From NCBI RefSeq assembly GCF_000317635.1, contig NC_019779.1, forward strand, positions 3,596,001-3,660,000: DNA of 64,000 bases. The letters run 5' to 3'. A program made the position numbers and the translations under genes. Every line of letters starts with the position of its first letter. Position 1 is the stretch's first letter. Positions 45,770 to 51,408 of this stretch are shown here, one piece after another. Source of the DNA: Halothece sp. PCC 7418 (GTDB lineage: Bacteria > Cyanobacteriota > Cyanobacteriia > Cyanobacteriales > Rubidibacteraceae). Below the pieces are notes generated by a model. It made no database searches and was not told the origin of the DNA. It saw only the letters and a program-made list of their open reading frames with translations.

Positions 45770-47755
45770 CTAAGTGCTTGATCCAACTAAACCTGTGGTG
45801 GGAGAACTGGCGCTTGCATATTGTTTAATCGGAATGCGTCCAGCGAGATAGCCGAGTCGTCCTGCTTCCGTCGCCATTCCCATCGCACGACCCATTGCAA
45901 TGGGATTTTTTGCCAGCGCGATCGCGCTATTAATCAACAACGCATCAGCCCCCAATTCCATAGCATAAGCAGCTTCACTGGGCGTGCCAATCCCCGCATC
46001 GACAACAACAGGAACGTTGGCTTCTTCGATGATAATTTGCAGGTTGGCTTCGGTTTTAATCCCTTGTCCCGACCCAATGGGAGATCCCAAAGGCATTACT
46101 GTGGAACAGCCCACATCTTCTAAACGTTTCGCAAGCACGGGATCGGCATTGATATAAGGTAAAACTGCAAAACCGTCTTTCACCAATTTTTCCGCAGCTT
46201 CTAACGTTCCAATCGGGTCAGGAAGGAGATGTTTCGGTTCGGGGATGACTTCTAATTTCACAAAGTTATTATCCTCCTGTCCAAGTAACTTCGCCATTTC
46301 TCGCCCTAGTTTTGCCACCCGAATTGCATCCTCTGCGGTTTTACAGCCTGCTGTATTGGGCAGCATCCAGAGTTGATTCCAATCGAGGGCTTCCCCTAAC
46401 CCTTCATGTCCTACCGCGTTATTCTGGACACGACGCACCGCAACGGTAACAATTTGGCTACCACTTGCGCTAAGACTTTCCCGCATAATTTCAGGATTGG
46501 GAAATTTTCCAGTGCCAGTAAGCAAGCGGGATTGAAAGGTACGTCCTGCAATGACTAAGGGCTGATCCTCTGGTTGGGCTGCGGTGGATTGGTTGGCGAT
46601 AGAAAGATGACTAATGTGAGAGTGTCCGTTTTGACCGTTCATTGTTGTTAGAGAAGAGGATTGTTTATGATTCAACCACTGACGAGTGTTTTGGCTGTGG
46701 AAGCGTTGGGGACGAAAATGATCTAAAAGTGGATCGCTATTCCCTTTCGTGATTAATTCCGCGATCATTTCAGCAGTAATGGGGGCGAGTAAAACGCCAT
46801 GACGATGATGTCCTGTGGCGAGAAATAAGTTTTCATAGTCTGATTGTCCGAGAATCGGGAGTTCATCGGGTGTTGTGGGACGGAAGCCCCACCAAATCTG
46901 TTCCATTGACCAATCTTGTAATTCGGGATAGAGACGCATCGCGCGATCGCTGAGAGTTTTAATCCCAGCAGGGGTATTATTTCCCGTCCACCCCACTTCT
47001 TCTGAGGTTGCGCCAATAATCAACCGTCCATCTTGTCTTGGAATTAAATAAGTATTGGGACCAAATAACACGCGCTGGATCGGATAGGGTTGATCAGGCA
47101 TCCGCAGGCACATCATTTGTCCTTTTACGGGACGCACGGGAAGCGGTAACAGTTCTTTGACCCAAGATCCTGTTGCTAGAACATAGTGATCCGCTTGTAA
47201 GATTCCCTCACTGGTTCTAATTTTGGTGATGCGACCCTTTTGCTTTTGAATGCTTTTAACCGTTACCCCTTCTCGAAATTCCACGCCGTTTGCTTTGGCT
47301 GCTTGCAAGAGGGTTTTCATTAAGGCAATATTATCCACTTGCGCGTCTTCGGGATACCACCAAGCGCCAATGACATCTTCTCCGAGTCCTGGTTGATAAA
47401 ATTCTAAATCAGGCTTGTCCACCCAAGTGGCAGGTTGTACCGCAGGAGAACTAGGGGCTTGACTTTTTTCATAAACAGGGGCGAGAATCCCACAAGGAAA
47501 ATAGCCTGTATCTTCTCCCGTTTGGTGTTCGAGGTCATTAATCCAATCGGGGTAAAGATCGCGCGATCGCAGCGCCAAATCTAATAATGGACTGGGGGGA
47601 ATCGCTTCGGCTTGGGGTGCAATCATTCCACCTGCTGCAAACCCCGCAGCTTCGGCTTGGTTTCGACTGACAACCGTGACTGATTCTCCTCTTTTCCGTA
47701 ACGAAAGCGCGATCGCGCTGCCAATAATGCCACCACCAATAATTACTGTACTCAT
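45770..47755 (-). CDS. thiO/thiG: Bifunctional glycine oxidase / thiazole synthase (ThiO-ThiG fusion)
   Basis: 661 residues. The N-terminal FAD-dependent ThiO half (about 1-355) has [20 protein letters not shown] and [11 protein letters not shown] with the terminal [15 protein letters not shown] linker at about 355-400 is followed by ThiG ([20 protein letters not shown]; lysine near [19 protein letters not shown]-type [12 protein letters not shown]). ThiO makes dehydroglycine; ThiG condenses it with deoxyxylulose phosphate and ThiS thiocarboxylate to give the thiamine thiazole. Fusion of the two is known in cyanobacteria. No TPP riboswitch fits in the 28-bp gap upstream, so regulation may act at the DUF4079 gene or not through TPP. 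Confidence 0.95.
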
Positions 47756-48378: not shown

Positions 48379-50100
48379 ATGTTAAAAAATGATGAATGGA
48401 TTAAAGAAAAAGCAAGTCAAGGAATGATTTCGCCTTTTGAACCGCAACAAGTTCGCAAACTTGAGGGTGACATTCCTGTTATTTCCTATGGCTTGAGTAG
48501 CTTCGGCTATGATATTCGTTTATCGCCGAATGAATTTCGGATTTTTCGTCATATTCCTGGCACTATTGTTGACCCGAAAAACTTTAATCCTGATAATTTA
48601 GAACCGACTCAACTGTGCACGGATGAAACCGGAAGTTATTTTATTCTACCCGCCCATTCTTATGGCTTAGGAGTAGCTTTAGAACGGTTAGAAATTCCTG
48701 ATAATGTAACGGTCATTTGTATTGGAAAATCAACTTATGCAAGGTGTTTTCGCGGAGACACACGAGTTGCTTTAGTTGATGGCACTGCACCAACATTAGA
48801 AGAGATGGCAAAACGTGCTGAAAATGGCGAACAATTTTGGGGATACAGTATTGGACAACATGGTCGCTTAATCGTTACTTTGCTTGAAAACCCTCGTTAT
48901 ATTGGCAGAGATTCACTGGTGGAAGTAACTTTAGATAATGAAGAATCAATATTTTGCACACCCGATCATGAATTTATGACTCGGGATGGGCGAATGGTAG
49001 CAGCACAAGAATTAAAGCCAAATGATTCTTTAATGCCACTCTATCGCCAACTTGAACGAGGTTATGAAATGGTTTATCAACCTCTAAATGGACATCTTTA
49101 TCCCACTCATCGGCTTAGTGATGAATGGAATCTTAGACATCTAATTTATGAGGAAGAACCCAATACTCATCGCCATCACATTGACCATAATCGTCTTAAT
49201 AATTGTCCATGGAATATTATGCGGATGAATGAGTCGGAACATATTCGACTACATAATAGTATTACTTATGGTGTAGATTTTGACCCAAAAGAACATGGTC
49301 AATCAGTTAAACAAGCAATTTCAGAGCTAAAATTAAACCCTGAATGGTTGGAGAATTATTCAGAACAACAACAGAAAAGAGCTTTGAAATTTTGGCATGA
49401 TCCTCAATATGCTTCAGTTCGGGAATTATTACTAGAACGCCGTCGCAATTGTTCAGATGAAACTCGTCAAGCCCATCGAGAAAAGATGTTACGTCGTTAC
49501 GAATCGAAGGAAGCAAGAGCATTAACAGGAGAAAAATCGAAGCAGGCTTGGTCACAAGATGATGGAACAAGACGCGCTCGACAGTCGGAAACGATGAAAC
49601 GCATTAATGACTCCACAAAAACTCGTCATGAGATTACCGCCGATGTTGTACGTGCAGCTTTAGATCAAACGGGTTCCATCAGAGGAGCAGCCCGATTACT
49701 TAATTGTGATCGATCAGTTTTTCGGCGCTTTCCAGATGTGATTCATCAATTCCGAGGACAAAAAGTTAAAAACCATAAAGTTGTTAGTGTGAGAGAAATT
49801 GCAGGAACTCATGATGTTTATTGTCTTAGTGTTCCTGAGGCTGGTAATTTTGCCCTAGAATCAGGAGTCTTTGTCCATAATTGTGGAATTATCGCAAATA
49901 TAACGCCTGCAGAAGCGGGTTGGCGCGGTTTTTTAACCTTAGAATTATCGAATTCTTCTAGTGCCGATTGTAAGATTTATGCCAATGAAGGAATTGTTCA
50001 ATTAGTCTTTTTAGAAGGTGATCCTTGTTCAGTTAGTTACGAACAACGAAAAGGAAAGTATCAAGAACAGCCTAATCGCGTCACTTTAGCAAAAATTTAA
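48379..50100 (+). CDS. dcd: dCTP deaminase interrupted by an intein
   Basis: 573 residues as translated: N-extein 122 residues, intein 379, C-extein 72. The spliced enzyme is 194 residues, the normal Dcd length, and converts dCTP to dUTP for dTMP synthesis. I chose ATG 48379 (MLKNDEWIKEK), the typical Dcd start; the frame runs 11 codons further upstream. The break falls in the catalytic motif GKSTYAR^CGIIANITP, directly after the active-site arginine. The host Cys after the splice site serves as the +1 nucleophile. thyX follows 12 nt later. Confidence 0.95.
   Translation: MLKNDEWIKEKASQGMISPFEPQQVRKLEGDIPVISYGLSSFGYDIRLSPNEFRIFRHIPGTIVDPKNFNPDNLEPTQLCTDETGSYFILPAHSYGLGVALERLEIPDNVTVICIGKSTYARCFRGDTRVALVDGTAPTLEEMAKRAENGEQFWGYSIGQHGRLIVTLLENPRYIGRDSLVEVTLDNEESIFCTPDHEFMTRDGRMVAAQELKPNDSLMPLYRQLERGYEMVYQPLNGHLYPTHRLSDEWNLRHLIYEEEPNTHRHHIDHNRLNNCPWNIMRMNESEHIRLHNSITYGVDFDPKEHGQSVKQAISELKLNPEWLENYSEQQQKRALKFWHDPQYASVRELLLERRRNCSDETRQAHREKMLRRYESKEARALTGEKSKQAWSQDDGTRRARQSETMKRINDSTKTRHEITADVVRAALDQTGSIRGAARLLNCDRSVFRRFPDVIHQFRGQKVKNHKVVSVREIAGTHDVYCLSVPEAGNFALESGVFVHNCGIIANITPAEAGWRGFLTLELSNSSSADCKIYANEGIVQLVFLEGDPCSVSYEQRKGKYQEQPNRVTLAKI
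48745..49881 (+). other. Dcd intein with HNH homing endonuclease (379 residues)
   Basis: It begins with Cys1 (CFRGDTRVALVDG, block A) and has block B TPDH (FCTPDHEFMT), block F HDVYCLSVPEAGNFALESG and ends in VHN before the +1 Cys. Thus all splicing residues (Cys1, TxxH, penultimate His, terminal Asn, Cys+1) are present. The insert between blocks holds an HNH-type nuclease (HRHHIDHNRLNNCPWN then MNESEHIRLHN, intein residues about 143-175), a basic NUMOD-like stretch and a helix-turn-helix (GSIRGAARLLNCDRSVFRRF), probably for target DNA recognition. Confidence 0.93.
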
Positions 50101-50112
50101 AAGGAGTTAAAA

Positions 50113-51408
50113 ATGGATAAATTTAGAATTGAAGTCATTAAAGCAACCCCGAATCCACAACAAGTAATGTGGTTAGCAATGCACCAAGATTATTCCGAAG
50201 ATTTGGTTTGGGATAAGCGCGATCGCGCACCAGATGAAACCAAAGCGGGAGAAAAAGTAATCAAGCATTTATTATCAGGAGAAAGAGGACATTATGGCCC
50301 CTTAGAACATCCGCAAATTACATTTAATGTGGGCTTTTTTCCTCATTCAATGATGCAACAAATTCGCACTCATAGGGTTGGAATTTCATTTGATGTACAG
50401 TGTCTTGCAGGGGATACTGAAGTCACTTTCGTTAAAGCCTCTGGTAGTCTTAAAAAAGCCAAAATTTCTGAACTTTACAAAAGTTGGCTTAATAAAGATA
50501 AAGAAAACAAAGTTCAAAATAATAATAAATCTCAAGAAAGAGATTTTGTTAAAAATTTGCCCTTGCGGGTACTAAATGAAGAGACAGGAAAATTTCAAAT
50601 AAGTCGCATTAAAGATGTTCTTTGTAGTGGCGTTCAACCTGTTTACCGTCTAACGCTGGAAGATAGTAAACAATTAGACTGTACGACCAACCATAAACTT
50701 TTAACGATTCAAGGTTGGCAAAGAATGGGCAAAGCAGTTGGCTTAGTTGTAAATTCAGATCGCGAAGTTATAAAAACTGAAAATGATTGTTGGGTTTTGT
50801 GTAATGGAGTACCTATATTAGAAAAAACATCAGCAGAACAAATACAATCTCAAGTTAAAGCCCATCCTGTTAAAGTTGCTAAGGTAGAATATCTAGGCTT
50901 ACAAACGACTTACGATTTAGAGGTCGCAGAACCTTGGCATAATTTTGTTGCTAATGGCATCGTTGTTCACAATTCTTTCCGTTATACGGGAAAGCGTCTT
51001 TTAGATGTCGCAGAAGGGAAAAGAGATGCAGAAGATGTCTTTTATTTACGCCCCGTGGGTGAATATACAAACCGTCAAGGAAAACGCTATTTTTACTCAG
51101 AAGAACAACGCCAAGCGGATTTAGAATGGTGCATTGAAGCCACTAAACGTTATCAACAAAGAATTGGAGAAGGATTAGCCGAAGAACACGCGCGAGGAAT
51201 TATTCCCTTTGATACCCGACAGCATTTTGTCATGAGTTGTAATGCGCGATCGCTGATGCACCTCCTTGATTTACGCTGGAAAAAAGATGCCCAATTGGAA
51301 GCGCAGAAGTTTAGTGAACTTCTCTTTGGACATTTTCAAGAGTGGACACCTCAACTGGCAGAATGGTATTTAGAAAATCGTGCCAAAAAAGCAAGGTTGT
51401 CTCCTTAG
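50113..51408 (+). CDS. thyX: Flavin-dependent thymidylate synthase interrupted by an intein
   Basis: 431 residues as translated: N-extein 96, intein 191, C-extein 144, giving a 240-residue enzyme. ThyX makes dTMP from dUMP using FAD, NADPH and methylene-tetrahydrofolate. The split lies inside the ThyX signature: RTHRVGISFDVQ^SFRYTGKR, directly before its conserved serine, which becomes the +1 residue of splicing. Starts with AAGGAG 7-8 nt before ATG. Same strand as dcd and 12 nt away, so one operon supplies dUMP precursor and dTMP. Confidence 0.95.
   Translation: MDKFRIEVIKATPNPQQVMWLAMHQDYSEDLVWDKRDRAPDETKAGEKVIKHLLSGERGHYGPLEHPQITFNVGFFPHSMMQQIRTHRVGISFDVQCLAGDTEVTFVKASGSLKKAKISELYKSWLNKDKENKVQNNNKSQERDFVKNLPLRVLNEETGKFQISRIKDVLCSGVQPVYRLTLEDSKQLDCTTNHKLLTIQGWQRMGKAVGLVVNSDREVIKTENDCWVLCNGVPILEKTSAEQIQSQVKAHPVKVAKVEYLGLQTTYDLEVAEPWHNFVANGIVVHNSFRYTGKRLLDVAEGKRDAEDVFYLRPVGEYTNRQGKRYFYSEEQRQADLEWCIEATKRYQQRIGEGLAEEHARGIIPFDTRQHFVMSCNARSLMHLLDLRWKKDAQLEAQKFSELLFGHFQEWTPQLAEWYLENRAKKARLSP
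50401..50973 (+). other. ThyX mini-intein (191 residues)
   Basis: Starts CLAGDTEVTFV (Cys1, block A), has block B TTNHKLLT (TxxH), block F VEYLGLQTTYDLEVAEPWHN and ends ANGIVVHN before Ser+1. The splicing residues are complete. Between the blocks is only a Lys/Asn-rich stretch with no HNH or LAGLIDADG motif, so it is an endonuclease-free mini-intein, probably derived by loss. Confidence 0.92.

Follow-up and report, generated by a model that had tools for sequence, protein, structure and literature searches.

Does the presence of an intein in each of two neighbouring genes for thymidylate supply amount to a control device, or have two mobile elements met by chance? The genes are dcd and thyX of the cyanobacterium Halothece sp. 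PCC 7418, located in a 64,000-nucleotide stretch of its genome ("the window"; contig NC_019779.1, positions 3,596,001 to 3,660,000 of the forward strand). An earlier reading of the window from its letters (the "sequence-only reading") had found the pairing striking and suggested that splicing could gate the supply of deoxythymidine monophosphate (dTMP). The explanation favoured here, drawn from the observed anatomy, homology, distribution and lack of association, is a different one: very probably, the two inteins entered the neighbouring genes independently, splice constitutively as far as can be judged, and share the locus by coincidence. The pair illustrates a known kind well, and is no proven control switch.

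The two genes are arranged as follows, both inteins occupying what is termed below site a of their gene.

48379..50100, + strand: dcd precursor gene, 573 residues plus stop (open reading frame, Pfam, NCBIfam)
48379..48744, + strand: Dcd N-extein, ending in KSTYAR (continuous alignment with empty homologues)
48745..49881, + strand: Dcd intein, site a, 379 residues (Cys1 ... HN), precursor residues 123-501 (Pfam, NCBIfam, alignment)
49168..49257, + strand: HNH motif of the Dcd intein (HRHHIDHNRLNNCPWN...EHIRLHN), H/N/H invariant in six aligned rows (motif match)
49633..49755, + strand: helical, possibly DNA-binding segment near the C-terminus of the Dcd intein (...GSIRGAARLLNCDRSVFRRFP...), conserved, with helices in a modest-confidence model
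49882..50100, + strand: Dcd C-extein, beginning with the +1 Cys (sequence reading; junction KSTYAR/CGII)
50101..50112, + strand: intergenic gap of 12 nucleotides (AAGGAGTTAAAA), with AAGGAG resembling a ribosome-binding site (sequence reading)
50113..51408, + strand: thyX precursor gene, 431 residues plus stop (open reading frame, Pfam, NCBIfam)
50113..50400, + strand: ThyX N-extein, ending in FDVQ (sequence reading)
50401..50973, + strand: ThyX mini-intein, site a, 191 residues, precursor residues 97-287, without endonuclease (Pfam, NCBIfam, alignment, model)
50974..51408, + strand: ThyX C-extein, beginning with the +1 Ser of the ThyX signature SFRYT (sequence reading; alignment with solved ThyX chains)

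Direct reading, Pfam and NCBIfam bear out the sequence-only reading in that dcd and thyX adjoin, 12 nucleotides apart, and each contains one intein with complete splicing residues. Pfam detects DCD and Intein_splicing in one precursor and Thy1 and Intein_splicing in the other, while NCBIfam adds dCTP_deam, thyX, intein_Nterm and intein_Cterm, all above cut-off. Once joined, the exteins form a 194-residue Dcd and a 240-residue ThyX that pass the equivalog level (TIGR02274, 98.5 bits for a cut-off of 92.8; TIGR02170, 161.1 bits for a cut-off of 87.9) and align end-to-end with uninterrupted homologues (e.g., 95% over residues 1-194 and 88% over residues 1-240). The closest solved chain to the Dcd exteins is 4dhk. 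By the earlier reading, exteins that fail to align or splice-dead changes would have refuted it: the alignments to Dcd and ThyX are full-length, and reading both precursor frames revealed neither a frameshift nor a splice-dead change.

The Dcd intein displays C1, a TPDH block, a VHN end and the +1 Cys, all read directly, and matches PF14890, a Hint homology, with 69.9 bits (cut-off 35.8). Junction reading and alignment place it directly after KSTYAR, as had been proposed, the arginine of this motif being in our assumption the catalytic one (R115 in E. coli). It would be a full homing intein, with a predicted HNH endonuclease within the Hint domain whose key residues are invariant in the six aligned rows. 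A model of the whole intein reaches only modest confidence, with a mean predicted local distance difference test (pLDDT) score of 68.6. In the ThyX intein, C1, a TTNH block, a VHN end and the +1 Ser were also read directly, and PF14890 yields 45.6 bits against the same cut-off. Its model adopts a Hint fold (mean pLDDT 86), and its best PDB match is 6frg (E 7.6e-12), the mini-intein of Ssp DnaB. The middle region of its relatives in two congeners (G040 and G132) is absent, making it a mini-intein. On sequence grounds, both elements classify as inteins. The position directly before the ThyX signature serine (DVQ^S, where ^ marks the junction) was read correctly from the sequence, as the +1 serine aligns with the signature serine of solved ThyX chains, presumably S88 of Thermotoga ThyX. 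This serine was once proposed as a nucleophile, yet its alanine mutant is active, according to the accessible part of one report (PMC4913046); the +1 serine is thus an active-site residue and not the catalytic nucleophile.

The occupancy of these sites was surveyed in 148 evenly drawn genomes of the order, using the joined exteins as queries and reading the junctions on fetched loci. Matches were obtained in 91 genomes for Dcd and 77 for ThyX, and the search for empty and filled sites that the sequence-only reading had recommended returned both states for both genes. Dcd is filled in 10 genomes (8 at site a, 1 at b, 1 at c), empty in 76, broken by group II introns in 3 and unclear in 2. ThyX is filled in 34 (30 at site a, 2 at b, 2 at c), empty in 29, distant and empty in 7, and weak or partial in 7. 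All sites pooled, filled genes are found in 34 of the 63 scored genomes for ThyX and 10 of 86 for Dcd. Three sites are used in Dcd, namely a (KSTYAR^C), b (IGK^STYAR; G125) and c (PAEA^SWRG; G040), and three in ThyX, namely a (DVQ^S), b (HRVG^SFDVQ; G006, G096) and c (GHYG^C; G024, G061). One filled ThyX (G123) is broken downstream by a stop. The group II introns in dcd belong to G034 (two introns), G076 and G110 (loci L124, L125 and L126), with Rfam matches ending at the exon.

The association between the two fillings was tested on genomes matching both genes, a gene being counted as filled at any site; the 3 intron-broken and 2 unclear Dcds and the 7 weak or partial ThyXs were left out, as were, in a first version, the 7 distant ThyXs. 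The 42 genomes of this first version comprise 2 with both genes filled, 2 with only Dcd filled, 21 with only ThyX filled and 17 with both empty. Double filling is thus observed twice for 2.19 expected (Fisher p = 1.0). With the distant ThyXs included, the counts become 2, 3, 21 and 19 (p = 0.67). The test is a rough one, the genomes being related; it shows no sign of an excess of pairing over coincidence, which had been the striking feature in the first reading. Adjacency of the genes is itself common: among 48 genomes with both (weak ThyX left out), dcd and thyX lie on the same strand within 1.5 kb in 25, on opposite strands within 1.5 kb in 10, far apart in 2 and on different contigs in 11.

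Within the genus, six genomes display several occupancy states. The window genome combines a Dcd intein at site a with a ThyX mini-intein at site a, and G040 a Dcd intein at site c with a full ThyX intein at site a. Dcd is empty in G132, G012 and G145, in which ThyX carries at site a a full intein, a mini-intein and a mini-intein, respectively; both genes are empty in G082. Dcd is therefore filled in two of the six genomes and ThyX in five. The four congeners with an empty dcd have a Dcd 91-95% identical to the window extein. An endonuclease-sized region, HNH by eye, is found in the ThyX inteins of G040 (450 residues) and G132 (384 residues), and is absent from those of the window (191 residues), G012 (199 residues) and G145 (183 residues). 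In quick trees, G132 has a ThyX intein that clusters with one from a different genus of the family, and an extein that clusters with the window's. ThyX inteins seem to turn over, because intein and extein trees conflict inside the genus.

Relatives of the window's Dcd intein were collected by a profile search of genome contigs, keeping the best 80 of 143 confirmed loci, many of which come from metagenome bins, where stray contigs occur. Dcd is the host protein in all of these best 80 loci, and both Dcd halves with a break at or beside site a are found in 79; L182 is cut by its own contig, and a further break is present in L188 and L204. The tree and the identity comparison omit nine of the 80 loci, devoid of a fitting junction pattern, and the tree holds 71. 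At least seven phyla are represented, with a named phylum for 69 tree loci: Pseudomonadota (35), Chloroflexota (17), Cyanobacteriota (11), Deinococcota (3), and Acidobacteriota, Elusimicrobiota and Methylomirabilota (one each). Lengths of the relatives span 155 to 384 residues, which suggests repeated loss of the endonuclease. The +1 residue is Cys in all 70 loci, of the 80, with a readable junction. At 45 distinct sites without a site-a intein, taken from the fetched loci and not from all 91 genomes, it is Cys in 28, Val in 12, Ala in 4 and Ile in 1, this sole Ile belonging to G040, filled at site c instead. By known chemistry, Val, Ala and Ile at +1 are incompatible with splicing of the site-a intein.

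Identity to the window is higher for the intein than for the extein in 70 of the 79 rows, and in 48 of the 55 over 300 residues; four rows are duplicates, and the nine contrary rows are eight cyanobacterial ones and that of the cyanophage vB_AphaS-CL131 (CL131). The cellular cyanobacterial Dcd inteins form one group that includes the window's, with a support of 97 in the Shimodaira-Hasegawa-like approximate likelihood ratio test (SH-aLRT). A recent cross-phylum jump into the window lineage, considered as a candidate, is unsupported, given this single group. Two-intein Dcds were met along the way: in Chromatium okenii DSM 169 (L204, 2414-4918) and in the Gammaproteobacteria metagenome-assembled genome SJ706 (L188, 933-3566), sites b and a are both filled, with the five extein residues STYAR between them. 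A second C. okenii strain (L198) is filled at site a alone.

As inteins usually do, both occupy conserved active-site motifs, presumably because such a motif offers the endonuclease a conserved target in the DNA and imprecise loss is punished there. In the favoured explanation, each intein would remove itself after translation to leave the 194-residue Dcd and the 240-residue ThyX. Each precursor most likely splices alone, soon after folding, and the host would then possess normal Dcd and ThyX; constitutive splicing of both is probable. The Dcd intein would retain its homing activity, and the ThyX mini-intein has probably lost an endonuclease still present in congeners. Co-occupancy would then be a coincidence: dcd and thyX are frequent neighbours in cyanobacteria, and of the two insertions one is very common and the other less so.

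Four points weigh against this explanation. The association test, on 42 related genomes, has little power. The doubly filled state has two instances in a single genus and a third in a phage contig, a possible hint of something in common. Conservation of the Dcd intein exceeds what would be expected of a passive insert (82% amino-acid identity with that of Spirulina, for an identity of 0.39 at fourfold sites), although active homing would account for it. Finally, at depth, the intein classes are not fully independent. The site-c intein in the Dcd of G040 (L067) matches the site-c intein in the ThyX of G061 (L086) with 25% identity (E 2e-17), and the Dcd inteins of site b (G125) and of CL131 match some ThyX site-a inteins weakly. 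Old exchange between dcd and thyX is possible for these other alleles because of this remote kinship. Dating the gain of the Dcd intein was attempted and given up, fourfold sites being near saturation in all four comparisons.

Phages provide the first alternative: a recent origin of the filled pair, or of one intein in it, from a phage carrying thyX and dcd. We consider it improbable. Fourteen phage records cover at least 80% of the ThyX query. The phage contigs were found with intein-bearing queries, and are unusable for frequencies. One is a 25-kb viral contig with a terminase (L285), in which both genes are filled, ~1.1 kb apart, thyX at site c and dcd at site a.

L285, 7078-8862 and 9503-11632: thyX and dcd, both intein-filled

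Contigs related to L285 are in other states, with thyX filled and dcd empty in L290 and both empty in L286, L288 and L291. In L287 (5507-7699), Dcd bears inteins at site a (191 residues) and site c (344 residues) separated by 12 extein residues, the latter intein being 48% identical to that of the congener G040. A 270-kb viral contig (L243) encodes a Dcd with a short site-a intein, and phage CL131 carries a Dcd intein at site a as well. Furthermore, an 86-kb viral contig (L268, 2698-4134) possesses a thyX that is filled by an intein and shares 90% DNA identity with those of G037 and G060; in the stretches compared, the identity is limited to the gene and the flanks are unlike, making phage-host exchange likely for this thyX. 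For the window itself, however, the gene order of L285 is reversed, its ThyX intein sits at site c and its Dcd intein is only 43% identical. At site a, the inteins of L285 and L287 resemble that of CL131 (51% and 62% identity) more than the window's (43% and 29%). The latter is of the cellular type, because it is distant from phage inteins and grouped with cellular cyanobacterial ones.

A broader proposal, to which we give little credence, makes dcd and thyX a hot spot of intein exchange shared by cyanobacteria and their phages, with dTMP made through two tunable or regulated splicings in the absence of another route. It would fit the recurrence of double occupancy in three combinations: Dcd a with ThyX a in the window, Dcd c with ThyX a in G040, and Dcd a with ThyX c in L285.

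The coordinated gate, in which both inteins would splice conditionally on a common signal and switch on dTMP supply post-translationally, is very unlikely. If splicing gated both enzymes, the supply of DNA precursors would be controlled post-translationally in two steps, and both inteins do interrupt active-site motifs. Conditional splicing is documented elsewhere, e.g., in Mycobacterium smegmatis, where oxidants inhibit DnaB intein 1, according to the accessible part of the report (PMC6195587). The genome, a single contig of 4,179,170 bases, also seems to depend on ThyX: no match at E 0.001 was found for ThyA (PF00303), thymidine kinase (PF00265) or trimeric dUTPase (PF00692), which are matched in 9, 8 and 11 of 14 control genomes, respectively. 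No match at this threshold was found for dUTPase_2 (PF08761) either, a weaker absence since this family occurs in only 1 of the 14. PF00692 is absent from four of the five other congeners and present in G132. With no ThyA or thymidine kinase match, ThyX presumably must be assembled for dTMP synthesis, and the absence of the searched families strengthens the need for a working ThyX. The sequence-only reading had called both products dTMP-forming enzymes. This holds for ThyX; Dcd, named for its deoxycytidine triphosphate (dCTP) deaminase activity, supplies deoxyuridine triphosphate or monophosphate, forms no dTMP itself, and may be bifunctional (dCTP deaminase and dUTPase).

Against the gate, Dcd and ThyX fillings are unassociated and congeners exist without one or both inteins; such come-and-go occupancy would not be expected of a gate needed by the host. 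The inteins are only remote kin, with different +1 residues (Cys and Ser), and a shared sensor is not evident. Relatives of both splice in E. coli, and the accessible parts of the reports name no trigger (see below); searches of the openly accessible literature returned no conditional splicing of these two inteins. The suggestion that splicing gates thymidylate supply is thus left unsupported, and independent entry with constitutive splicing is retained. Spread from one gene to its neighbour, by which the window's two inteins would be of recent shared origin, is almost certainly wrong: a few hundred bases separate them and some Dcd and ThyX classes (Dcd c with ThyX c) are related at depth, but the two have differing relatives and sizes, one is without endonuclease, and the lack of a BLASTP match between them at E 1e-3 rules out a recent common origin. 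As Hint domains, they do share a distant ancestor.

Inteins of both kinds were already known, in Dcd from one cyanophage and in ThyX from Trichodesmium and mycobacteriophages. For the Trichodesmium (Ter) ThyX intein, Liu and Yang 2004 is reportedly the reference cited. The Dcd intein of CL131 resides, as in the window, after KSTYAR of a dCTP deaminase and contains an HNH endonuclease, named HNH_3; the accessible part of its description reports self-excision and a spliced product in E. coli (PMC6293099). In contrast with the window, it belongs to a phage gene, the inteins are 33-40% identical depending on the alignment, and no thyX is annotated within the 7-kb stretch examined. The Ter intein interrupts a cyanobacterial ThyX like that of the window, and an engineered mini-intein derived from it splices at ~100% in E. 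coli; the accessible text mentions no dcd partner (PMC3620165). Two mycobacteriophage ThyX-like inteins, likened to the window's by description, are found in other hosts, and phages are proposed there as intein vehicles (PMC5050341, in its accessible part). Haloarchaeal MCM proteins harbor several inteins close together at functional sites, with sporadic occupancy and frequent transfer, but in one archaeal gene and not in two neighbours (PMC10643990, as far as its accessible part goes). M. smegmatis DnaB associates a mini-intein at an active-site loop with an endonuclease intein; there, a single gene is concerned, and splicing and oxidant sensitivity were measured (PMC6195587, accessible part). 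In the openly accessible literature, neither the paired occupancy nor the cross-phylum spread of the Dcd intein was found described, most subscription papers lying outside the search. Gate aside, dcd-thyX constitutes a natural laboratory for inteins, with three sites per gene, full and mini forms, phage copies, several occupancy states in one genus and two-intein Dcds separated by 5 or 12 residues.

GyrB, DnaX and the split DnaE of this genome also harbor inteins (G000:C1 150522, 3178361, 1529969, 3721538); the two DnaE intein matches do not reach the Pfam cut-off, and their assignment relies on the host gene and, in the N half, on intein_Nterm. Elsewhere in the window, a ThiO-ThiG fusion protein is encoded at 45770-47755 on the - strand.

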